Part shown: positions 17,654-29,712 of the stretch, piece by piece | Layout of the letters: each line of letters opens with the position of its first letter | Position numbering within the stretch: the stretch's first letter is position 1 | Assembly (NCBI GenBank): GCA_949297185.1 | Contig: CASFRM010000009.1 | Coordinates: 1 to 50,074 of the forward strand | Reading direction: 5' to 3' | Length of the DNA stretch: 50,074 nucleotides | From: an uncultured Pseudomonadota bacterium | Lineage (GTDB): Bacteria; Pseudomonadota; Alphaproteobacteria; RF32; CAG-239 | Position numbers and translations under genes: made by a program | Notes under the pieces: model-generated | What the model saw: only the letters and a program-made list of their open reading frames with translations | The model's database searches: none | Told to the model about the DNA's origin: nothing

Positions 17654-18835
17654 TCAAAGGTTGATAAACTCTTTTACTCTTTGAGCAAATTGGCTCAAGA
17701 CATCAGATTTCGGAGTATATTTTTCTTCGAATACATCTGCGGTTTTCCAGCCTAAATCGTCCATGACTTGTTTAATTTCTTTAACAACCCCCGGACGCCA
17801 TCCGTAAGAACCAAAAGCCAAACCTTTCTTACCTTTCGGAGCCAATCCTTTCATATAAGTAACAAAGGCGGCAACTCTCGGGAACAACTGGTTATTAAGA
17901 GTAGGATTACCGATTAATACATATTCTGCATCCAACACATCGGTAATGACATCTGAAATATGGCTGATACCCAAATTATGTTTTACCACATTGATACCGG
18001 CATCTTGGAATTCTGCCATAGCGGTTTCTGCCAATTTAGCGGTAGCGCCCCACATAGTATCATAAACAATAACAGCCTTATGAGTTGCCTCACCCTTAGC
18101 CCAAGAAGCATACGCCCCAAGTATCTGATTAACTTCTTCTTTTCCGGACCAAATCAAACCGTGAGACGGTGCAATCATATCAATATCGAGGTTCATCTCA
18201 CCGGCAGCCGATAAAGCTTTTTCGGCTTGCTGTCCGTAAGGAAGCAAGATATTTGCATAATAGCTTTTTGCCGCTTTCATAACCAAATCATTCGGATAAT
18301 CTTTGACCAATAAGGCTTCACAGCACAAGTGTTGACCAAATCCGTCGTTAGGCAACAACAATTTATCTTCTGCCACATAAGTCATCATTGAATCCGGCCA
18401 GTGCAACATCGGAGTTGTCAAAAAGCTCAAATTGCGTTTTCCGATATTTAAGCTGTCGCCGGTTTTAACAATGTGATATTGCCAACCCGTTGTATCAAAA
18501 TGAGCCTCCAAGGCCATTTTACCGGCCGAGTTGGTAACAATAACGGCTTGCGGAGCAAGTTTCATAATCTCAGGAATACTGCCTGAGTGATCTTGTTCAA
18601 CGTGGTTTACCACTACATAAGATATTTTTGAAAAATCGACCATAGACTTTACTCTGGCAATTTGCTCATGAGTTAAATAAGCCTTAACTCCGTCAACCAA
18701 AGTAATCTTTTCATCCATGATTAAATAGCTGTTATATGTTGAACCGTCCGGAGTGTTATAACCATGAAATTCTCTCAAATTCCAGTCTTTAACACCGACC
18801 CAATATACATCTTTTTTTATTTCGACAGCATTCAT
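17654..18835 (-). CDS. flavodiiron protein (O2/NO reductase)
   Basis: 393 residues. Flavodiiron proteins reduce O2 to water or NO to N2O, protecting anaerobes. The metallo-beta-lactamase-like domain (1 to about 250) carries the diiron ligands in HVEQDHSGS near residue 79, plus LHWPDSM and the HG of PSHGLIWS. The flavodoxin domain (about 255-393) has the FMN loop YDTMWGATAKLAE and SYGWRPG. There is no C-terminal rubredoxin, so a separate electron donor is needed. A longer frame starts with TTG at 18850; I chose ATG at 18835 because GAGGAGA sits 6 bases upstream. It is divergent from perR-rbr across a PerR-like box. Confidence 0.95.
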   Translation of the reverse strand: MNAVEIKKDVYWVGVKDWNLREFHGYNTPDGSTYNSYLIMDEKITLVDGVKAYLTHEQIARVKSMVDFSKISYVVVNHVEQDHSGSIPEIMKLAPQAVIVTNSAGKMALEAHFDTTGWQYHIVKTGDSLNIGKRNLSFLTTPMLHWPDSMMTYVAEDKLLLPNDGFGQHLCCEALLVKDYPNDLVMKAAKSYYANILLPYGQQAEKALSAAGEMNLDIDMIAPSHGLIWSGKEEVNQILGAYASWAKGEATHKAVIVYDTMWGATAKLAETAMAEFQDAGINVVKHNLGISHISDVITDVLDAEYVLIGNPTLNNQLFPRVAAFVTYMKGLAPKGKKGLAFGSYGWRPGVVKEIKQVMDDLGWKTADVFEEKYTPKSDVLSQFAQRVKEFINL

Positions 18836-18869
18836 CTGTGTTCTCCTCAAAAATTAAGTCATTGCTGAT

Positions 18870-18897
18870 AAGATAATCTTTTTATTTTGATTGACAA
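18870..18897 (-). promoter_or_regulatory. promoter of the flavodiiron gene
   Basis: TTGTCA (18892-18897, minus strand), a 16-base spacer, then TATCTT (18870-18875). Its -35 overlaps that of the perR promoter because TTGACAA reads as TTGTCAA on the other strand. Confidence 0.5.
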
Positions 18898-18919
18898 GAT
18901 AAAATATTTTTTCTAAAAC
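18891..18919 (+). promoter_or_regulatory. promoter of perR-rbr
   Basis: A perfect TTGACA (18891-18896), 17 bases, then TAAAAC (18914-18919). The start would fall inside the PerR-like box, as expected for autorepression. Confidence 0.5.
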
Positions 18920-18934
18920 TAATAATCATTATCA
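18920..18934. promoter_or_regulatory. PerR/Fur-type operator
   Basis: TAATAATCATTATCA matches the PerR consensus TTATAATNATTATAA at 12 of 14 defined positions and is nearly palindromic. It overlaps the expected perR start point and lies upstream of the flavodiiron -35, so one site could control both directions. Confidence 0.7.
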
Positions 18935-18956
18935 TTTTTATACACAGGAAATGAAT

Positions 18957-19343
18957 ATGAAATTTTCCAAACAACGTTCTTTAATACTGGAGGTCTTGCA
19001 AAACAATCCCTGCCATCCAACGGCAGAGCAAGTTTTTGCCATGGTAAAAGAGCAGCTGCCCGACATAAGCCTTGCGACCGTATATCGCAATCTTAATCAG
19101 CTGGCGGAAAATGGAATAATAAAAAAACTTGATTATATAGACAATGTGTCTCATTTTGATTATTGCACCGAGAAGCATTATCATTTTGTATGCTCAAAAT
19201 GCTCCAAAATTTTCGATATAAAAGCCAATATCATACCGGAAATAAAGCAAAGCATTCTAAAGCAACAAGGTTTGACGGTTGAGGATATGGAAATCTCATT
19301 TTCCGGACTTTGCCCCGACTGTCTAAAAAACTCAAACAACTAA
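18957..19343 (+). CDS. perR: PerR-like Fur-family regulator
   Basis: 128 residues from the ATG at 18957. The ATG at 18951 is too close to its AGGA, while 18957 has 7-base spacing. An N-terminal winged helix (SKQRSLILEVL, HPTAEQVF, ISLATVYRNLNQLAENGIIKKL) is followed by a dimerisation domain with the regulatory-metal block HFDYCTEKHYHFVC and structural-zinc pairs CSKC and CPDC. PerR uses iron plus His/Asp ligands to sense peroxide by metal-catalysed oxidation. The Asp in HFDYC fits PerR better than Fur, though only experiment settles this. It is followed after 18 bases by rubrerythrin and preceded by its probable operator. Confidence 0.88.
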   Translation: MKFSKQRSLILEVLQNNPCHPTAEQVFAMVKEQLPDISLATVYRNLNQLAENGIIKKLDYIDNVSHFDYCTEKHYHFVCSKCSKIFDIKANIIPEIKQSILKQQGLTVEDMEISFSGLCPDCLKNSNN

Positions 19344-19361
19344 CATTAAAGGAGAAAACTT

Positions 19362-19901
19362 ATGGAACTCAAAGGTTCAAAGACCGAAAAAAACTTGATG
19401 GAAGCATTTGCCGGCGAATCGCAAGCTCGCAACAAATACACCTACTACGCTTCTAAAGCCAAAAAAGAAGGCTACAACATTATTGCCGACAAATTTGAGC
19501 AAACAGCCAACAACGAAAAAGAACATGCCAAAATTTGGTTCAAATTGTTGCACGGCGGTGAAGTTCCCTCAACCTTGACCAACTTAAAAGATGCTGCTGC
19601 CGGTGAAAACTACGAATGGACAGACATGTACGCTCGCATGGCCAAAGAAGCTAAAGAAGAAGGTTTTGACAAAATCGCTGCCTTGTTCGAATTGGTAGGT
19701 AAAATCGAAAAAGGTCACGAAGAAAGATATCAAGCTTTGTTAACATCTCTTGAAGAAGGCAAAATTTTTGAACGTCCGACCAGAGTTATTTGGGAATGCG
19801 CTAACTGCGGTCACCGTGTAGAATCTCCGTCTGCACCGGCCAAATGCCCTGTTTGCGATCACCCGCAAGCTTACTTCTTTGAATTACAAGAACAATTCTA
19901 A
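19362..19901 (+). CDS. rbr: rubrerythrin
   Basis: 179 residues. Rubrerythrin reduces H2O2 to water in anaerobes. A four-helix diiron domain carries [27 protein letters not shown] and the later [15 protein letters not shown], supplying the Glu/His ligands. The C-terminal rubredoxin-like domain has CANCGHRV and [11 protein letters not shown]. The length and order are those of the classical NADH-peroxidase-type rubrerythrin. AAAGGAG precedes the ATG. Codon use is heavily biased to common codons (AAA, GAA, GCC), fitting high expression. It is the second gene after perR and ends in a strong terminator. Confidence 0.97.
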
Positions 19902-21990: not shown

Positions 21991-22026
21991 AAAAAAACTC
22001 CTCGTTTTCACGAGGAGTTTTTTTTT
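21991..22026. terminator. bidirectional terminator between proS and the hydrogenase operon
   Basis: ACTCCTCG/CGAGGAGT stem with a TTTTCA loop, A7 on the left and T9 on the right, serving both convergent units. Confidence 0.92.
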
Positions 22027-22038
22027 GGCTTTTAAGGA

Positions 22039-23490
22039 TTATTTCATATCCTTTTGATTGGTACCTTGAGCAACATAGGTCTCAACCTGACGAGCCGCTT
22101 TCTTAGCCAAAGCGATGCAACCTGGGCCTGCAATACATCCGCCCTCGCAGCACATTACTTCAATCATGTTGTTTTCCGAACCTTTAGTTGCATACTTTTT
22201 GAGCAATTTAATATTTTCTTTGCTCAAACCGTCAATCCTCTCCGGACGGAATTCAACTTCACCTTCGACCAAATTTCCGACAGCACCGGCTACACCGCCT
22301 GACAGCGGATAATTACGACCTTGAGCCGAAGAAACTTTAGCGAACTGAGCCGGTTCACAATCACCGATTTCAACACCGGCACCAACAAACATTGCACCGA
22401 TTTCTTCAAAAGTAAGAACATAATCCACATTCGGATCATATTCGGCCTCAGTTCTTTTTGCCAAGCAAGGACCGACAAATACCGATACACAATCCGGTTG
22501 TTCTTTTTTGAGCATCTCGGCAGTATAATACATCGGAGTCTTGGTATTAGAAACAAAAGGTTTCAATTCCGGAATATGAACTTCTGCAGCTCTAAAATAA
22601 GCCGGACAACAAGAAGTTGTCATGAAGTTAGCTCCCTCTTTCATTCTCTCAATAAACTCAGCAGCTTCGTTCTTAGATGTAATATCAGCTCCGGCGGCTA
22701 CTTCAACCACATCATCAAAACCGATTTTTTTCAAAGCACCTACCACTTGATTAATCTCAAACGGAAACTGTCCTACAACGGCCGGAGCCAACATAGCGAC
22801 AACCTTTTTATCGGTGTTATGAATTAAATTCAAAACATCTACCAATTGTGAACGCTCAACAATTGCCCCAAACGGACAAGATTGCAAACATTTACCGCAA
22901 GAAATACAAATTTCTTCGTTAATATGCTCAACACCATGTTCATCTTTGCGAATAGCCCCTACCGGACAAGCTTCTTCACAAGGTACCGGCAATTTAACCA
23001 CTGCATGATACGGACAAACTTCCAAACATTTACCGCAAGATACGCACAGATCCGGATTTATGTGCGAACGACCGTTAACAATTGAAATAGCTTGTTTGGG
23101 GCAGTTCATGACACACGGACGGGCAAAACAACCGCGACAAGCATCGGTAACCATATACTGAGATTTTACGCAAGCCGAACAAGCGATATCAATCACTGCC
23201 AAACAACTTTTGGCATGGTTTTGTCTTTTAAGAGCATCTTTACCATAATCTTTCAACTGTTTGGCTTCGTTGGTTTCCTCTTGCGGAGTATAGCCCATTG
23301 CCGCCATCATACGATATTTCAAAATTGCTCTGTCTTTATAGATACAGCAACGGCTAGAATCATAATCCTTAGGGCGCATTTCGATTGGAATCTCGTCGGC
23401 GCTTTCAAATCTGTCTTTATAAAAGCTTTCAACAACTTTAACCAAAATGCGGCTACGCATCTGGTTGGCATAATTCTTAGGTATTAACAC
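22039..23490 (-). CDS. monomeric [FeFe] hydrogenase, group B-like
   Basis: 483 residues. It likely catalyses reversible H2 formation with ferredoxin-type donors. The N-terminal part carries four-Cys cluster motifs, including CVSCGKCLEVCP and CISCGKCLQSCP (two [4Fe-4S]), plus extra cysteines CSACVKSQ and CRGCFARPCVMNCP. H-cluster ligands are all visible: L1 TTSCCPAYF near 291, L2 VGPCLAKRTEAE near 341, L3 MCCEGGCIAGPG near 445. L1 keeps both cysteines, including the proton-relay one. The motif set fits the B-type monomeric enzymes of anaerobes rather than group A. The GTG start overlaps the stop of the [2Fe-2S] gene, so translation is coupled. HydE, HydF and HydG must be encoded elsewhere. It is the last gene of the operon. 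Confidence 0.9.
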   Translation of the reverse strand: MLIPKNYANQMRSRILVKVVESFYKDRFESADEIPIEMRPKDYDSSRCCIYKDRAILKYRMMAAMGYTPQEETNEAKQLKDYGKDALKRQNHAKSCLAVIDIACSACVKSQYMVTDACRGCFARPCVMNCPKQAISIVNGRSHINPDLCVSCGKCLEVCPYHAVVKLPVPCEEACPVGAIRKDEHGVEHINEEICISCGKCLQSCPFGAIVERSQLVDVLNLIHNTDKKVVAMLAPAVVGQFPFEINQVVGALKKIGFDDVVEVAAGADITSKNEAAEFIERMKEGANFMTTSCCPAYFRAAEVHIPELKPFVSNTKTPMYYTAEMLKKEQPDCVSVFVGPCLAKRTEAEYDPNVDYVLTFEEIGAMFVGAGVEIGDCEPAQFAKVSSAQGRNYPLSGGVAGAVGNLVEGEVEFRPERIDGLSKENIKLLKKYATKGSENNMIEVMCCEGGCIAGPGCIALAKKAARQVETYVAQGTNQKDMK

Positions 23491-23759
23491 TTTTCTTCTT
23501 CCTCTTTAGCAATCAAATCTCTAATTTTTGCCACCACTTTTTCCATGGTTGCTTCTTCAATAACTTCTCCGTTAACTTCAACAAACGGACCTTTATTATA
23601 CCCCTTACCCTGAGAGCAGTGATTCATACATCTTACTTCGGTAACTTCAATTTTATCGGCCAAATCCTCGGGAGCCGAAAACTCCAAAGCTTGTATTTGC
23701 GGAGCCCCCATTACGAAGCAAGCAGTTCCGGCACAGATTTTTACCTGTATTTTTTCCAT
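23484..23759 (-). CDS. thioredoxin-like [2Fe-2S] ferredoxin, NuoE-type (second copy)
   Basis: 91 residues. Four cysteines are in the NuoE/thioredoxin-like ferredoxin pattern: CAGTAC near residue 9 and CMNHC near 44, in a compact alpha/beta fold. The C-terminus is a run of acidic residues ending in Cys. Known: such subunits pass electrons between flavin/NADH units or other clusters and hydrogenases. It ends in a 7-base overlap with the hydrogenase gene, so the two are probably made in equal amounts and act as partners. AGAAGGA precedes its ATG. Confidence 0.88.
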   Translation of the reverse strand: MEKIQVKICAGTACFVMGAPQIQALEFSAPEDLADKIEVTEVRCMNHCSQGKGYNKGPFVEVNGEVIEEATMEKVVAKIRDLIAKEEEEKC

Positions 23760-23782
23760 GGGACAAATCCTTCTGTTAAGGG

Positions 23783-24958
23783 TTAAACATATTTTACCGT
23801 AATTTCTTTTAAGAACTTACTCTGCAAAATTCTAAAAATCTTTTTAACAATATTTCGGCGAATGTCAAGCTCCATCGGTAAATTCGGATCCTGATGCGCC
23901 TCATTTATTTTAGTTCCGATAACAAAATCGATTTTATCGGAATCAAGCAACAACTTTGCCAATCTGGTTGCCGCATTATCTTTGTCTTCGTCGATTCCTT
24001 CTTTTAGCATACGATAAACTTCGGTCAAAGTAAGAATCCCCTCGGTAACCAAGTCAATTCCCGGCATTATTGAAGCCATCGGTATATTAGGATCAAAAGT
24101 CGTCTTGTCCATTTCGCATTTAAGACAAAGCTCTCTTTCGATTATATTGGCGGTTGTACCGCCGCAAATAGCGGTTTTTCCGTCATAATAGTCAATCATT
24201 TCGGCAATTTCGTGGTCTTTTTCTTCATCAAACGGAGGACCGCTCAAAAGAAGCAATTTACGGGGTCTTCTGTAATAAACCACCACACAACTTATATCAT
24301 CCCCTGCCTTACCGTCTTTTTCTTTGGTAAGGGCTTCTTTTACTATCGCTTCGGCCAAATCTTTTGCTGATATGTGCGGGTGACGACGCACTTGATTTTC
24401 AATAAGCTTCCATACACCGTCTCTTTGCCAACCGAGAGGATATTTAGGATTACCGAGTCCGGCTTGCGTAACTCCGTCCGACATAATAATGATTCTATCT
24501 TCTTCTTTGGCCACAAATTGATAAACATTAATAACTCTGTCTTTCCAATTTTCCGAAGAAATTTCATGATGAGCCGGATGATATTGTTGAAAATCACGCA
24601 CCACAAAGCACTGTGGGTTATCCATTTCATAGACGCGCGTTTTACCTTCCAATGTTGCATCTATAATCGAAAATGTAGCATAGCTTATTTTCCTTATCTG
24701 GCATACAGGTAATGCTTGCATCATAACCTCGGCCGAGCGAACCAAATCCAAATCACTCTCAACAAACTTCATTGCCATTCGTGTGGTCATGGATGAAAGA
24801 ATATTAGCCTTAACACCGCTGCCCAATCCATCAGATAATACGGATATAATTCTTTGTTCTTCAGGTAATTTTTTTGAAAGAATTGCATCACCGAAACAAC
24901 TTTCGGAGGCTTTATGTTCCTGACAAGAGCCTATTTCAATAAAAAGTGAATCACTCAA
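23783..24958 (-). CDS. SpoIIE/PP2C-type serine phosphatase
   Basis: 391 residues. Residues about 1-230 form a PP2C-like phosphatase domain with the metal-binding aspartates in LSDGLGSGVKAN, IMSDGVTQAG and AGDDISCVVV. Residues about 235-391 are an additional domain (RKLLLLSGPPFD to the C-terminus) with CGGTTANI and a LDSDKIDFVIGTKIN block, which I cannot assign. Known: such phosphatases sit beside group C sensory [FeFe] hydrogenases in Clostridia and Thermotogales and are thought to be the signal output. The start is TTG, 3 bases after the sensor stop with AAGGGATGA upstream. No kinase or anti-sigma partner is in the window. Confidence 0.85.
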   Translation of the reverse strand: MSDSLFIEIGSCQEHKASESCFGDAILSKKLPEEQRIISVLSDGLGSGVKANILSSMTTRMAMKFVESDLDLVRSAEVMMQALPVCQIRKISYATFSIIDATLEGKTRVYEMDNPQCFVVRDFQQYHPAHHEISSENWKDRVINVYQFVAKEEDRIIIMSDGVTQAGLGNPKYPLGWQRDGVWKLIENQVRRHPHISAKDLAEAIVKEALTKEKDGKAGDDISCVVVYYRRPRKLLLLSGPPFDEEKDHEIAEMIDYYDGKTAICGGTTANIIERELCLKCEMDKTTFDPNIPMASIMPGIDLVTEGILTLTEVYRMLKEGIDEDKDNAATRLAKLLLDSDKIDFVIGTKINEAHQDPNLPMELDIRRNIVKKIFRILQSKFLKEITVKYV

Positions 24959-24961
24959 TTT

Positions 24962-26719
24962 TTAATCATCCCTTTTATTGCGAATGGTTACATTTGGTTT
25001 ATCATAATCATCTGCGGCATAATCTTTGGCAATCGAACGCAACAACACTTCGGTTTCGGCCATATGTTCACCCAAAGTACAGGCGATTTGTTGCACGGTA
25101 GCCAAATTCTTTTCAATAACTTCCTTGGCTTTCTCGGCAATTTTTTCGCGTTTTATCTCAACTTTGGTAACATCTTCAATAACTCCGCCTACCACTTGTT
25201 TTTGTTCAATGTTAAACACCATAACGTCATAGAGTTTATTTTTGTTGCGAGCATTTTCTCTTTTAACATCTTCACCCAAATCAAGCGAAGCCGAGAATAA
25301 ATTGGTAAAACTTACAAAATCGCGTAAATTAGCACCGATTAGATTATTCCTGTCATATATATCACCATGCTCTTCATCATCCCAAAACTCATTAACAAAG
25401 TAATCATTATATTCGATAATCGAGAGTTTGGAATTTACAATAACAATCGGCGAAGGAATACATTTCAACAAGGCATTTGCCTTACGCTGAGCCTGTTGTT
25501 TAATATGAGAAACACACATATCAATCTCTGCCTTGCCATCTAAAATAGCCTTGGCAAAATTTCTACAATTATCATAACCGCAGGCATTACAGTTAATTTC
25601 GTCTTCAACCGTATATTTTCCGAGCATTGCCAAGACTCTTTTAATCTGATCTTCGCTATAATTATTATTTTCAACCGGCTTTTCTTGATAAATTTTTGTT
25701 ATGTCTTCTTCCGGTTTACGCTTTCCGGCCATATCTGTTTTAACGGCATCTTTAAGCACTCTGGCTCTTTTTTCAAAGCCGGATTTATGATTTCTGGTGC
25801 AAGGTCCGTTAACACATCCTCCTTCACAGGCCAAACATTCAATAAAAATCGGATAATCAGGTCTCGAACCTTTAATATCTGCCAATTCACGTTGAATATT
25901 TTCCAATCCGGTTAACTGCATCATATAAACATGATTGGTCTTACCATAAGGCTTAATTGTCTCTATCATACCGCCTTCAATCGGATAATACCTACCCTCT
26001 TCGGCTTTTTTATAAACAAAGTCGATTCCTTTTTCCGGCTCAATGGTATGATAATTTATTCCGGTTTCTCTAAACCAACGCCGCAGATCTCTAAACGAAA
26101 TACTGGAATTTAATAAATCTTTATTGCGATCGGCCTCAAACTTTTTGGCAATACAAGGTCCGACGAAAACAATTTTTATGTCTTGTCCCAATTTATCGCG
26201 CATCAACATACAATGAGCAAGCACCGGCGAAAGCACCGGAGTTAAATCCTCGGTTAAATCAGGCATATATTTATTTATATATTCAACAAAAGCCGGACAA
26301 GCTGTTGAGAAAAAAACACCTTCTTTCTTATCAGCCAAGAAGTCAGCCACATGAGCAGAAACTTCTTCGGCTCCCAAAGCAGTCTCGCTCACCCCGGCAA
26401 ATCCAAGTTTTTTTATTGCAGTAAGGAGTTGTTCTTTGGTGGTATTATCAAATTCTGCAATCCATGACGGCGCCAAAGAAATATAAACCTTTTCTCCGGC
26501 CGCAATCATATTTTTTACTCTCGGCACATCGTCACGATCTTGCTTAGCCCTTACCGGACAAACTTTATAACACTTTCCGCAAGCCACACAAAGTTCCGGT
26601 ACAATCTGCGCTGAGTTATCTTCGATTTTAATTGCCTTAACCGGACATTCTCTCACACACTTATAACAGTCCTGACAATCGTTTTTAATTGTAAAAAGAG
26701 GATGTTCGCGGCTCGACAT
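24962..26719 (-). CDS. [FeFe] hydrogenase-like H2/redox sensor with PAS domain (group C-like, HydS)
   Basis: 585 residues. Two [4Fe-4S] ferredoxin motifs come first (CQDCYKCVRECP, CVACGKCYKVCP). The H-cluster domain follows: L1 STACPAF near 135, L2 VGPCIAKKFEAD near 186, L3 CLACEGGCVNGP near 295. In L1 the first of the two usual cysteines, the proton-relay one, is alanine; the cluster-ligand cysteine is kept. Then comes a CNACGYDNC...C cluster domain near 376 and a PAS domain at about 410-515 (IPSPIVIVNSKLSIIEYND), ending in a helical tail. This is the layout of sensory group C proteins, not of a high-turnover hydrogenase. A strong AAGGAG precedes the ATG. Confidence 0.88.
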   Translation of the reverse strand: MSSREHPLFTIKNDCQDCYKCVRECPVKAIKIEDNSAQIVPELCVACGKCYKVCPVRAKQDRDDVPRVKNMIAAGEKVYISLAPSWIAEFDNTTKEQLLTAIKKLGFAGVSETALGAEEVSAHVADFLADKKEGVFFSTACPAFVEYINKYMPDLTEDLTPVLSPVLAHCMLMRDKLGQDIKIVFVGPCIAKKFEADRNKDLLNSSISFRDLRRWFRETGINYHTIEPEKGIDFVYKKAEEGRYYPIEGGMIETIKPYGKTNHVYMMQLTGLENIQRELADIKGSRPDYPIFIECLACEGGCVNGPCTRNHKSGFEKRARVLKDAVKTDMAGKRKPEEDITKIYQEKPVENNNYSEDQIKRVLAMLGKYTVEDEINCNACGYDNCRNFAKAILDGKAEIDMCVSHIKQQAQRKANALLKCIPSPIVIVNSKLSIIEYNDYFVNEFWDDEEHGDIYDRNNLIGANLRDFVSFTNLFSASLDLGEDVKRENARNKNKLYDVMVFNIEQKQVVGGVIEDVTKVEIKREKIAEKAKEVIEKNLATVQQIACTLGEHMAETEVLLRSIAKDYAADDYDKPNVTIRNKRDD

Positions 26720-26725
26720 ATGATA

Positions 26726-26968
26726 TTACTCCTTAAAAGTTTTATCTAAAATATCGACCAAAGTACCGGCATCAACATTATGATACTCAACCCCGTCAAT
26801 CGTCATATTAGGACCTTTTGCACACTGATTACAGCATCTCAAACCAGACAATTCGATTTTTACATCAAGGTTGTGATCTTTCAAATATTGCATAATCACC
26901 TGAAGGTTTTTGCTATTGCCTCTGGCAAAACAAGAACTTCCCATACAAATTTGAATTCTGCTGTTCAT
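26726..26968 (-). CDS. thioredoxin-like [2Fe-2S] ferredoxin, NuoE-type (first copy)
   Basis: 80 residues with CMGSSC near residue 8 and CCNQCAKGPNM near 45, the four-Cys NuoE-like [2Fe-2S] pattern with one extra cysteine. It is clearly related to the 91-residue copy two genes on, yet differs at most positions, so this is not a recent duplication. It starts 54 bases after the adhE stop with AAGGAGG and ends 6 bases before the sensor. By position it probably feeds electrons to the sensor rather than to the catalytic hydrogenase. Confidence 0.87.
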   Translation of the reverse strand: MNSRIQICMGSSCFARGNSKNLQVIMQYLKDHNLDVKIELSGLRCCNQCAKGPNMTIDGVEYHNVDAGTLVDILDKTFKE

Positions 26969-27022
26969 TGTCTCATCCTCCTTAAATGAAAATTGACGGG
27001 GTTTTATTGTTATAATATCAGC

Positions 27023-29617
27023 TTATATTTTGCCTTCAAAAGCGTCCATATAAATTTTTCTGATATCTTCCATTAACGGATATACAGGGTTTGCACCCGT
27101 GCATTGATCGTCAAAAGCATTCTCCACCAACCAATCAAGTTTGGCTTCAAAATCTTTTTTAGAAATGCCCCAATCTTTAATCGAAGCCGGAATTTCAATT
27201 TCCTTCTTCAATTCGACGATAGCATCAATCAATGCTGCAACTTTTTCATCATCGGTTTTGCCTTTGAGTTTCAAGTTGCTGGCGATTTGAGCATATCTCT
27301 TTTTAGCCTCTGGCATTTTATATTGCGGGAATATAGCCTGCTTGCGTGGACAATCTGTCGCATTATATTTAATAACCTGACAAATCAACAAAGCATTGGC
27401 AACACCGTGCGGAATATTAAATGCCGCACCGAGCTTATGAGCCATCGAGTGACACAATCCCAAGAAAGCATTAGCAAAAGCCATACCGGCAATAGTTGCG
27501 GCATGATGCATTTTCTCTCTAGCAATCGGATCATTAACGCCGTTTTTATAAGCTCTCGGCAAGTATCTCATAACCTGTTTGGCGGCTTCCAAAGCTGCAG
27601 AATTGGTAAAGTTTGTAGCCATTACCGAAACATAAGCCTCAATAGCATGAACCAAAGCATCAATACCGCCAGCAGAAGTTAAACCTTTGGGCATATTGTC
27701 AACAAAGTTAGCATCAACAATTGCCATATTAGGTGTTAAAGCATAGTCAGCGATAGCATATTTTACATGGCTCTCATCATCGGTAATAACCGCAAACGGA
27801 GTAACTTCAGAACCGGTACCCGATGTTGTCGGAATTGCAACCATGATTGCTTTTTGTCCCAAATCGCCGATTGTACAAATACGTTTTCTGATATCCATAA
27901 AGCGCATTGCAACATCTTCAAATTTGATATCCGGTCTTTCGTACTTAAGCCACATGATTTTAGCAGCATCCATCGGCGAACCGCCACCAAACGAAATAAA
28001 GACATCTGGCTTGAATACATTAATCATAACCAAAGCTTCTTCAATGGTAGAAATTGTCGGATCAGGTTTAACATCAAAGAAAATTTGATATTCGATGTTC
28101 ATTTCTTCCAATACATTGGTAATGGAATTAACCATACCGGAATCAAACAAATAACGGTCGGTAACAATAAATGCTCTCTTTTTACCTTCCAATTCACGCA
28201 AAGCTAAATCCGTTGCCCCGCGTTTGAAATAAATTTTTGGCGGTACTCTAAACCACAACATATTCTCTCTCCTTTCGGCAACGGTTTTATAATTCAACAA
28301 ATGTTTAACTCCGACATTTTCGCTCACGGAGTTTCCGCCCCAAGAGCCGCAACCCAAAGTCAACGAAGGTTCAAGTCTAAAGTTAAACAAATCACCGATT
28401 CCGCCTTGAGATGAAGGAGAATTAATCAACAATCTTCCGGTCGGAAGTTTTTTAGCAAAATAGTCTACTCTGTCTTGTTTTCTGGTATCGGTATACAAAA
28501 CTGAAGTATGTCCCATACCGCCCAATTCAACCAAGTGCAAAGCTTTTTCAACAGCTGTTTCAAAATCATCTGCCTGATACAAAGTCAAAATCGGAGACAA
28601 TTTTTCGTGAGCATACGGATTTGCAACATCAATAACTGTTTGTTCAGCCAAAAGTATTTTAGTATGTTCTGGGACATTAATTCCGGCCATTTTAGCGATT
28701 TTAACTGCCGGCTGCCCAACGATTTCCGGATTAACACCTTTAGGTGTCAAAATTATTTTGGATAATTTTTCGGCCTCTTTTGCATTAAGTAGATAAGCGC
28801 CTCTAAATACAAATTCTTTTTTAACTTTTTCATACACCGGTTTTAATGCCACAACCGACTGCTCCGAAGCACAGATCATACCGTTATCAAAAGTTTTAGA
28901 CATCAATATGTAAGATACGGCCATTTCCACATCAGCTGTCTCGTCAATAATTGCTGGCACATTACCTGCACCAACGCCCAAAGCCGGTTTTCCCGAAGAG
29001 TATGCGGCCTTAACCATTCCCGGTCCGCCGGTAGCCAAAATTCCGTTAATATCCGGATGTGTCATCAACAAATCAGTCAATTCAATTGAGGGCTCATCAA
29101 TCCATGCGATAATATTTTCCGGAGCCCCTGCTTTAACAGCAGCTTCATACACAACCTTTGCAGCCTCGATAGTCGATTTTTTAGCTCTCGGATGCGGAGA
29201 AAAGATGATTGCGTTTCTCGTTTTCAAGCAAATCAAAGACTTGAATATTGCAGTAGAAGTCGGGTTAGTTGTAGGAACCACACCGGCAATAACCCCCAAA
29301 GGCTCACCGACAATTTTTACGCCGTTTGTTTTATCAGATTTGATAATTCCGCAAGTTTTTTCATTTTTATATTTATTATAGATATATTCTGCGGCAAAAT
29401 GGTTTTTGATTATTTTATCTTCTACCACGCCCATGCCGGTATCCTCAACAGCCATTTTAGCCAATGGAATACGCGCCATATCGGCAGCGGTTGCAGCAGC
29501 CTTAAAGATTTTATTTACGGTTTCTTGATCAAAAGTCGCAAAAACCTTTTGAGCTTCTTTAACTTTTTTAATCAAGGCTTCCAAATCTTTAGCTGTCTTG
29601 ACTGTTTTATTTGTCAT
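27023..29617 (-). CDS. adhE: bifunctional aldehyde/alcohol dehydrogenase AdhE
   Basis: 864 residues, the full fusion. The N-terminal CoA-acylating acetaldehyde dehydrogenase (about 1-440) has TNPTSTAIFKSL and the catalytic cysteine in GMICASEQ near residue 247. The C-terminal iron alcohol dehydrogenase (about 455-864) has GGGSPMDAAK, the GTGSE loop, and iron ligands in HAIEAYVS and CHSMAHKLGAAFNIPHG. It turns acetyl-CoA into ethanol, regenerating two NAD+. E. coli AdhE polymerises into spirosomes, and this length fits. AAAGG precedes the ATG. No terminator separates it from the hydrogenase genes 54 bases downstream, so all six are probably one operon of reductant disposal. Confidence 0.97.
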   Translation of the reverse strand: MTNKTVKTAKDLEALIKKVKEAQKVFATFDQETVNKIFKAAATAADMARIPLAKMAVEDTGMGVVEDKIIKNHFAAEYIYNKYKNEKTCGIIKSDKTNGVKIVGEPLGVIAGVVPTTNPTSTAIFKSLICLKTRNAIIFSPHPRAKKSTIEAAKVVYEAAVKAGAPENIIAWIDEPSIELTDLLMTHPDINGILATGGPGMVKAAYSSGKPALGVGAGNVPAIIDETADVEMAVSYILMSKTFDNGMICASEQSVVALKPVYEKVKKEFVFRGAYLLNAKEAEKLSKIILTPKGVNPEIVGQPAVKIAKMAGINVPEHTKILLAEQTVIDVANPYAHEKLSPILTLYQADDFETAVEKALHLVELGGMGHTSVLYTDTRKQDRVDYFAKKLPTGRLLINSPSSQGGIGDLFNFRLEPSLTLGCGSWGGNSVSENVGVKHLLNYKTVAERRENMLWFRVPPKIYFKRGATDLALRELEGKKRAFIVTDRYLFDSGMVNSITNVLEEMNIEYQIFFDVKPDPTISTIEEALVMINVFKPDVFISFGGGSPMDAAKIMWLKYERPDIKFEDVAMRFMDIRKRICTIGDLGQKAIMVAIPTTSGTGSEVTPFAVITDDESHVKYAIADYALTPNMAIVDANFVDNMPKGLTSAGGIDALVHAIEAYVSVMATNFTNSAALEAAKQVMRYLPRAYKNGVNDPIAREKMHHAATIAGMAFANAFLGLCHSMAHKLGAAFNIPHGVANALLICQVIKYNATDCPRKQAIFPQYKMPEAKKRYAQIASNLKLKGKTDDEKVAALIDAIVELKKEIEIPASIKDWGISKKDFEAKLDWLVENAFDDQCTGANPVYPLMEDIRKIYMDAFEGKI

Positions 29618-29674: not shown

Positions 29675-29712
29675 TAAAATAAGGTTTACCATCATTGGCA
29701 AACCTTATTTTA
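29675..29712 (-). terminator. terminator of the MsbA-like gene
   Basis: TAAAATAAGGTTT and AAACCTTATTTTA pair perfectly (13 bp) around a 12-base loop, abutting the stop codon of the ABC gene. It is also T-rich beyond the stem on the minus strand. Confidence 0.75.

Follow-up and report, generated by a model that had tools for sequence, protein, structure and literature searches.

A probable hydrogen-responsive fermentation-control operon with apparent local capture of adhE in an uncultured alphaproteobacterium

Introduction

The closest described counterpart of the system reported here is an eight-gene cluster of Ruminococcus albus, which includes a ferredoxin hydrogenase, an alcohol/aldehyde dehydrogenase, and a group C sensory hydrogenase and is down 111-fold in H2-removing co-culture (PMC6776011; here and throughout, what is credited to a paper comes from excerpts of its text). 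A 90-fold decrease has been reported for the R. albus HydA2 transcript (PMC10838669). In Thermoanaerobacterium saccharolyticum, deletion of hfsB raises adhE expression and ethanol; the same source terms HfsB a homologue of R. albus HydS, gives the operon as hfsABCD, and treats adhE apart (PMC5707799), a system compared here by description and not by sequence. We describe a six-gene row, adhE-fdx1-hydS-pp2c-fdx2-hydB, on a 50,074-nucleotide stretch of contig CASFRM010000009.1 from an uncultured bacterium (hereafter the window; contig 9 of its genome). The unit is a Rex-less, adhE-capturing variant of this known H2-control unit, and it is real and conserved. Sequence comparison, together with analogy to R. 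albus, makes it probable that the row is an H2-responsive fermentation-control operon in which adhE was captured locally.

As the initial annotation proposed, the host is an alphaproteobacterium; its genome measures 1.51 Mb and is 94% complete. Records of near relatives are labeled Alphaproteobacteria, proteobacterium, and once Rhodospirillales, and the titles of three (L100, L108, and L110) mention deer rumen or cecum. Gut Rhodospirillales such as Azospirillum CAG:239 are known to encode [FeFe]-hydrogenases and Hyd maturases, with PFO (pyruvate:ferredoxin oxidoreductase) in most (PMC4967309); PAS, sensor, adhE, and phosphatase do not occur as whole words in the main text of that paper. Among the titles and abstract beginnings searched, which leave subscription literature mostly uncovered and are no proof of absence, none linked hydS to adhE for either Alphaproteobacteria or Gastranaerophilales. 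The general kind of this gene set is already known from R. albus 7. New here are the local capture of adhE, an output path without Rex, and the presence of another cassette type whose affinity is with Gastranaerophilales.

Results

All six open reading frames (ORFs) lie on the − strand, and both their positions and the functions first assigned to them are borne out by ORF calls and library matches. The first gene, adhE (27023..29617), encodes a bifunctional acetaldehyde-CoA/alcohol dehydrogenase of 864 residues (NF010378, 1376.8 bits against a cut-off of 951). Two small genes encode NuoE-like [2Fe-2S] proteins that both match 2Fe-2S_thioredx: fdx1 (26726..26968; 80 residues, thioredoxin-fold, PF01257 at 39.3 bits, Cys 8, 13, 45, and 49) and fdx2 (23484..23759; 91 residues, PF01257 at 31 bits, Cys 9, 14, 44, and 48). 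Between them stand hydS (24962..26719), for a predicted group-C-type sensory [FeFe]-hydrogenase of 585 residues, and pp2c (23783..24958), for a SpoIIE-type Ser/Thr phosphatase of 391 residues. The row ends with hydB (22039..23490), whose product of 483 residues is assigned to the monomeric group B [FeFe]-hydrogenases by TIGR04105 (540.8 bits, cut-off 450) and by the catalytic Cys; it has the full TSCCP motif, with both cysteines kept. From adhE to hydB the intergenic gaps are 54, 6, 3, 23, and −7 bases. The row is no chance arrangement, since the identical order recurs in nine more genomes from this genus, among them L037, whose contig begins within adhE.

On plasmid pRUMAL01 of R. albus 7 (L231), the order is rex-adhE-phosphotransferase-fdx-fdx-hydS-SpoIIE-hydrogenase. 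There, as in the window, adhE, two small [2Fe-2S] proteins, HydS, a SpoIIE phosphatase, and a ferredoxin hydrogenase are adjacent and codirectional. The window unit differs in having no rex and, in the fetched loci, no linked phosphotransferase or kinase, and in the placement of fdx2 between pp2c and hydB. Its HydS is 34% identical to that of R. albus over the matched part, and no HydABC-type hydrogenase was found in the window genome. The initial annotation had pointed to similar sets without adhE in Firmicutes. Monoglobus does carry fdx-hydS-SpoIIE-hydrogenase, with neither adhE nor rex in the fetched stretch, but the statement is incomplete because the R. albus 7 set includes adhE. The record of a third Firmicute, Acetoanaerobium, is unannotated at hydS, and its ORF listing gave no identified SpoIIE-sized neighbor.

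The window cassette is one of several layouts. Of the 153 genomes that we sampled from the order, a long HydS match is present in 60 (split over two contigs in G064) and a weaker one in 152. Layout 1, the order seen in the window, occurs in 10 genomes, all from the window's genus (35 sampled). Layout 2, with no adhE in the fetched stretch, accounts for 35 genomes, three of which show <3 kb of upstream sequence and two of which are cut before hydB; AdhE of a 63–67% type is encoded by 23 of these genomes and AdhE at 75–89% by 8, and 4 have no match. Layout 3 (13 genomes) has a more distant HydS, 40–45% identical to that of the window. Here adhE lies downstream of hydB in 11 of the 13, followed by rex in 5 of these 11; in the remainder, one contig ends in hydB and in L092 rex follows pp2c. 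The last two of the 60 are G152, from a sister family, and the split G064. A class sample of 385 genomes yielded HydS in 5 genomes (E 1e-60), of which two belong to the window's genus, and AdhE in 21 (E 1e-150).

A scan of genome contigs that reached beyond the class yielded at least 558 confirmed relatives, of which the best 80 were kept. Outside the Alphaproteobacteria the record titles of these 80 give Lentisphaerota/Victivallales, Planctomycetia, Gastranaerophilales/Melainabacteria, a spirochete, and others; none of the 80 titles names a Firmicute, although several say merely "bacterium". A full-size adhE stands upstream of fdx1 in 17 of the 80: 4 window-type Alphaproteobacteria and 13 loci from other groups, so that adhE-free sets are a poor foil for the window. 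In 11 of these 13, rex lies between adhE and fdx1; adhE adjoins fdx1 in L134 and L167, and in L167 rex is upstream of adhE on the opposite strand. Leaving rex aside, the Gastranaerophilales-type cassette, adhE-rex-fdx1-hydS-pp2c-fdx2-hydB (for example L137 and L143), reproduces the six-gene order of the window. It differs in this rex, between adhE and fdx1, and in falling into other clades for HydS, PP2C, HydB, and AdhE.

The second HydS cassette type of the window's family (L080–L092) is allied to these Gastranaerophilales loci, and its gene order, fdx1..hydB-adhE-rex, is theirs, adhE-rex-fdx1..hydB, circularly permuted. One family holds the H2-control cassette in two unrelated versions. A cassette recorded under uncultured Acinetobacter sp. 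RUG672 (L160) also groups with Gastranaerophilales-type sequences; the genome is probably misnamed.

The linked adhE appears to have come from close at hand. In an AdhE tree of 85 rows, window-type proteins group with the unlinked AdhE of genome G034 (support 97), with four other genus members (99), and with genus g8 (98). In approximately unbiased (AU) tests on 34 rows, a grouping of the window AdhE with its R. albus counterpart (p 0.0006), with Gastranaerophilales AdhE (2e-39), or with layout 3 AdhE (7e-9) was rejected. A single linkage event behind all adhE-bearing cassettes was considered and rejected, as the window AdhE is set apart from these three other linked groups.

The close AdhE of G034 (89%) stands alone in another neighborhood (L253), and the same genome has an adhE-free cassette. 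This AdhE is a possible source type for the capture.

The region before fdx1 differs between the two kinds of cassette. A sigma70-like pattern, TTG[CT]-N-TTTT ... TATA[ATC][TG], occurs 27–45 bases before fdx1 in 32 of 35 adhE-free relatives, matching 15 of the 16 regions viewed before it was written and 17 of the 19 unseen, but related, ones. At random places it occurs 19 times in 7000. The pattern is absent before fdx1 in all 10 window-type genomes and before adhE in the 9 that are usable (L037 being cut inside adhE). Judging from these sequences, addition of the ethanol gene seems to have been a local event and not an import from a Firmicute. The simplest course would start from rex-fdx1-..., proceed through a stage with rex lost and a promoter before fdx1, and end with placement of adhE before fdx1 in one sub-lineage. 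An older adhE may instead have been replaced in place.

It could also be that adhE is a passenger, co-transcribed but outside HydS–PP2C control, placed there by a chance rearrangement and kept by drift in one sub-lineage. In its favor, 35 of the 60 HydS genomes of the order have no adhE in the fetched cassette stretch, and many of these carry adhE elsewhere; against it stands the adjacency of adhE and cassette in R. albus and in Gastranaerophilales-type, Planctomycetia, Lentisphaeria, and spirochete records. A second alphaproteobacterial lineage has adhE at the opposite end of the cassette, and by the AU tests the window AdhE is distinct from that of three of these linked groups. HfsB, moreover, affects adhE in Thermoanaerobacterium (PMC5707799). 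We therefore consider a passenger adhE unlikely, and control of adhE by the cassette the better account.

HydS combines N-terminal [4Fe-4S] motifs, an H-cluster domain (PF02906, 163 bits), a C-terminal iron–sulfur domain, a PAS-like domain, and a long helix. Its H-cluster ligands C141, C189, C298, and C302 are intact in 40 of 40 aligned sequences. In its STACP motif, however, Ala140 replaces the proton-relay Cys, again in 40 of 40. Loss of this cysteine slows hydrogenase turnover (PMC8924675), and slow turnover is predicted for HydS on this ground. The C-terminal [4Fe-4S] domain (PF04060, 39.5 bits) keeps C377, C380, C385, and C402 in all 40. In the structural model (pLDDT, the per-residue confidence score, 79.8 and low at residues 1–60), the strands and helices of residues 425–516 are arranged much as in a PAS domain, and the long helix comes next; we take this part as a modeled PAS-like domain. 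The 50 matches listed in a fold search with HydS were all hydrogenases. A C-terminal [4Fe-4S] and a PAS domain are described as features of group C hydrogenases (PMC13104023), and accessory clusters occur in that group too; the likeness, tentative for the PAS part, is one of description and not of sequence.

By analogy, then, HydS likely senses H2, in agreement with the role first suggested for it. Could it instead be a slow catalytic subunit, or one on the ferredoxin side, that acts together with fdx1, fdx2, and HydB? Intact ligands and two co-encoded small redox proteins would suit such a subunit. The Ala in 40 of 40 sequences, the tail with its PAS-like part and long helix, and the position of pp2c directly 3′ of hydS in 58 of 58 fetched loci of the order (L035–L092) speak for a sensor, and we give the catalytic role little credence.

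The adjacent phosphatase (PF07228, 46.4 bits) has a SpoIIE-like fold (Foldseek to SpoIIE 5mqh, E 2.3e-14), and its Asp 43, 161, 220, and 221 are invariant in 41 of 41 sequences. All 50 matches listed in a fold search with the whole protein are PP2C-type phosphatases or complexes containing one. Its C-terminal domain of ∼160 residues (23786–24274) has no Pfam match. Model confidence there is mostly good, with one block at 53, and the domain is strongly conserved: its GPP, GGTT, TEG, and D-P stretches do not vary across 41 sequences.

The maturases suggested for a genome search in the initial annotation are encoded outside the window: HydG (C26), HydE (C3), and HydF (C10), along with PFOR, the pyruvate:ferredoxin oxidoreductase (C25). 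The two H-cluster proteins found in the genome both lie within the window; no third was found in this 94%-complete assembly, so that no HydABC was seen.

On this evidence, the cassette appears to be an older alphaproteobacterial one and not a recent import from a gut Firmicute. In a HydS tree of 87 rows, the window falls in an alphaproteobacteria-only clade of 36 (support 99), which includes the order-mate G152 and the class-mate G201. The 13 layout 3 Alphaproteobacteria form a separate clade (99) within a group (100) shared with Gastranaerophilales-type sequences and two class-mates of family f74, and joining the two alphaproteobacterial sets as one clade gave p 0.0006 in an AU test. The window likewise falls in an alphaproteobacterial clade in the HydB (60 rows) and PP2C (69 rows) trees, and a concatenated HydS/PP2C/HydB tree (25 rows) places 12 Alphaproteobacteria together (100/100). 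These trees contain several long branches, which are flagged. In the outgroup Alphaproteobacteria G152 and G201, rex is directly upstream of fdx1, and in both the stretch ends within ∼150 bases of rex. No AdhE match was found in G152 (79% complete), and the 21 class genomes in which AdhE was found do not include G201.

Transfer of the six-gene block from a gut Firmicute, as first suggested, would fit the close gene content of the R. albus cluster, and an AU test of HydS alone (32 rows, quick tree) did not reject a Firmicute join (p 0.071), but HydS identities of 31% to Monoglobus, 31% to Acetoanaerobium, and 34% to R. albus against 58–94% to nearer family members (window-type and adhE-free), alphaproteobacterial clades for three proteins, rejection of a window-type–Firmicute union by the concatenation (p 0.009), and rejection of a grouping of the window AdhE with the R. 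albus one (p 0.0006) make it most improbable. Firmicute sequences were few in these comparisons (HydS three, from plasmid-collection records; PP2C, HydB, and AdhE two each), and an unsampled Firmicute donor is possible.

Discussion

We propose that the operon couples the two electron outlets of fermentation to the H2 level. PFOR would oxidize pyruvate and reduce ferredoxin, HydB would turn reduced ferredoxin into H2, and AdhE would consume NADH to form ethanol; made together, AdhE and HydB would drain both electron pools of glycolysis. The initial annotation saw the two enzymes as alternative sinks. However, known biochemistry would have HydB draw on ferredoxin and AdhE on NADH, and a search of the genome for H-cluster proteins, [NiFe] enzymes not included, showed no HydABC; we therefore infer that the sinks are complementary. 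HydS, with its slow-turnover H-cluster, would read the H2 level, and its state could pass through the C-terminal [4Fe-4S], the PAS-like part, and the long helix to the adjacent SpoIIE-type phosphatase. By analogy with the precedents, output would run through this phosphatase, which would alter the phosphorylation of a regulator setting operon expression. The two NuoE-like proteins are probably electron carriers, or partners of HydS and HydB. As to origin, an alphaproteobacterial rex-fdx1-hydS-pp2c-fdx2-hydB would have lost rex in the window's family, and in one sub-lineage of the genus a family-type AdhE would have been placed directly before fdx1, where relatives keep a promoter.

Several observations weigh against this proposal. 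First, expected partners are missing. Rex, the usual one, has no match in the window or its genome, was found in none of the 10 window-type genomes, and was found in 11 of the 153 genomes of the order, including 1 of the 35 with an adhE-free cassette (G036). No STAS protein (PF01740) was found at E 0.001 in the 94%-complete window genome, and the R. albus phosphotransferase has no relative in the fetched loci except at its own locus, the rest of the genome not having been searched. Second, the PAS part of HydS is weak at the sequence level (PAS_9, 18 bits, under the cut-off of 27). Third, the sign of control differs between precedents, since loss of HfsB raises adhE in T. saccharolyticum (PMC5707799), unlike the R. 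albus pattern; this difference lowers our confidence. Fourth, some tests have limits: the larger trees had already been viewed when the groups for the AU tests were picked, the promoter pattern was written with nearly half of its regions in view, and HydS alone leaves the Firmicute join standing. Finally, window-type HydS proteins are 58–61% identical to other members of their genus and 60–65% to other genera, and window-type cassettes do not group with other genus members in trees. Because they are no closer to their own genus, cassette exchange inside the family is likely.

Two candidates for the output path were considered and dropped. Rex as a local regulator was rejected because no Rex was found in the window genome, and a STAS relay of SpoIIE type because no STAS was found there.

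A wider proposal can be put forward tentatively, as more doubtful than the operon itself. Capture of adhE by HydS–phosphatase cassettes may have happened independently more than once, at one end or the other; in the window lineage, where Rex was already gone, it would have displaced the promoter of the cassette itself, and an H2 sensor working without Rex or STAS would control both fermentation outlets, perhaps through the C-terminal domain of the phosphatase. If so, AdhE would be the selected output of group C hydrogenases. Close relatives with and without adhE, Rex, and the fdx1 promoter offer a natural experiment on what group C hydrogenases control.

Operon boundaries and neighboring genes

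The six genes likely share one transcript, as the bounding hairpins and the close spacing of the genes suggest. A terminator-like hairpin of 15 pairs with a U-rich tail (29677..29710, − strand; fold −17.7 kcal/mol, z −5.3) separates an upstream ABC transporter gene from adhE, and similar hairpins precede adhE in relatives too, as judged by eye. A bidirectional terminator-like hairpin, also of 15 pairs and detected on both strands in the scan (21991..22024), lies between hydB and proS. Consistent with the absence of internal terminators noted at the outset, the scan found no terminator-like site in the five gaps. Weak promoter-like matches are scattered over the whole stretch (31 against 21.5 expected); one of them falls at the adhE–fdx1 gap and by eye is kept in the closest relative only. 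Among the nine window-type relatives, the ABC gene is kept upstream in 8 and proS downstream in 7.

Beside the operon, an oxygen-defense group (17654–19901) comprises a flavorubredoxin-like protein, below its family cut-off, and two proteins identified by eye, one resembling rubrerythrin and the other a Fur/PerR-like regulator. The rubrerythrin-like gene is kept in 6 of the nine relatives and the Fur-like gene in 5.

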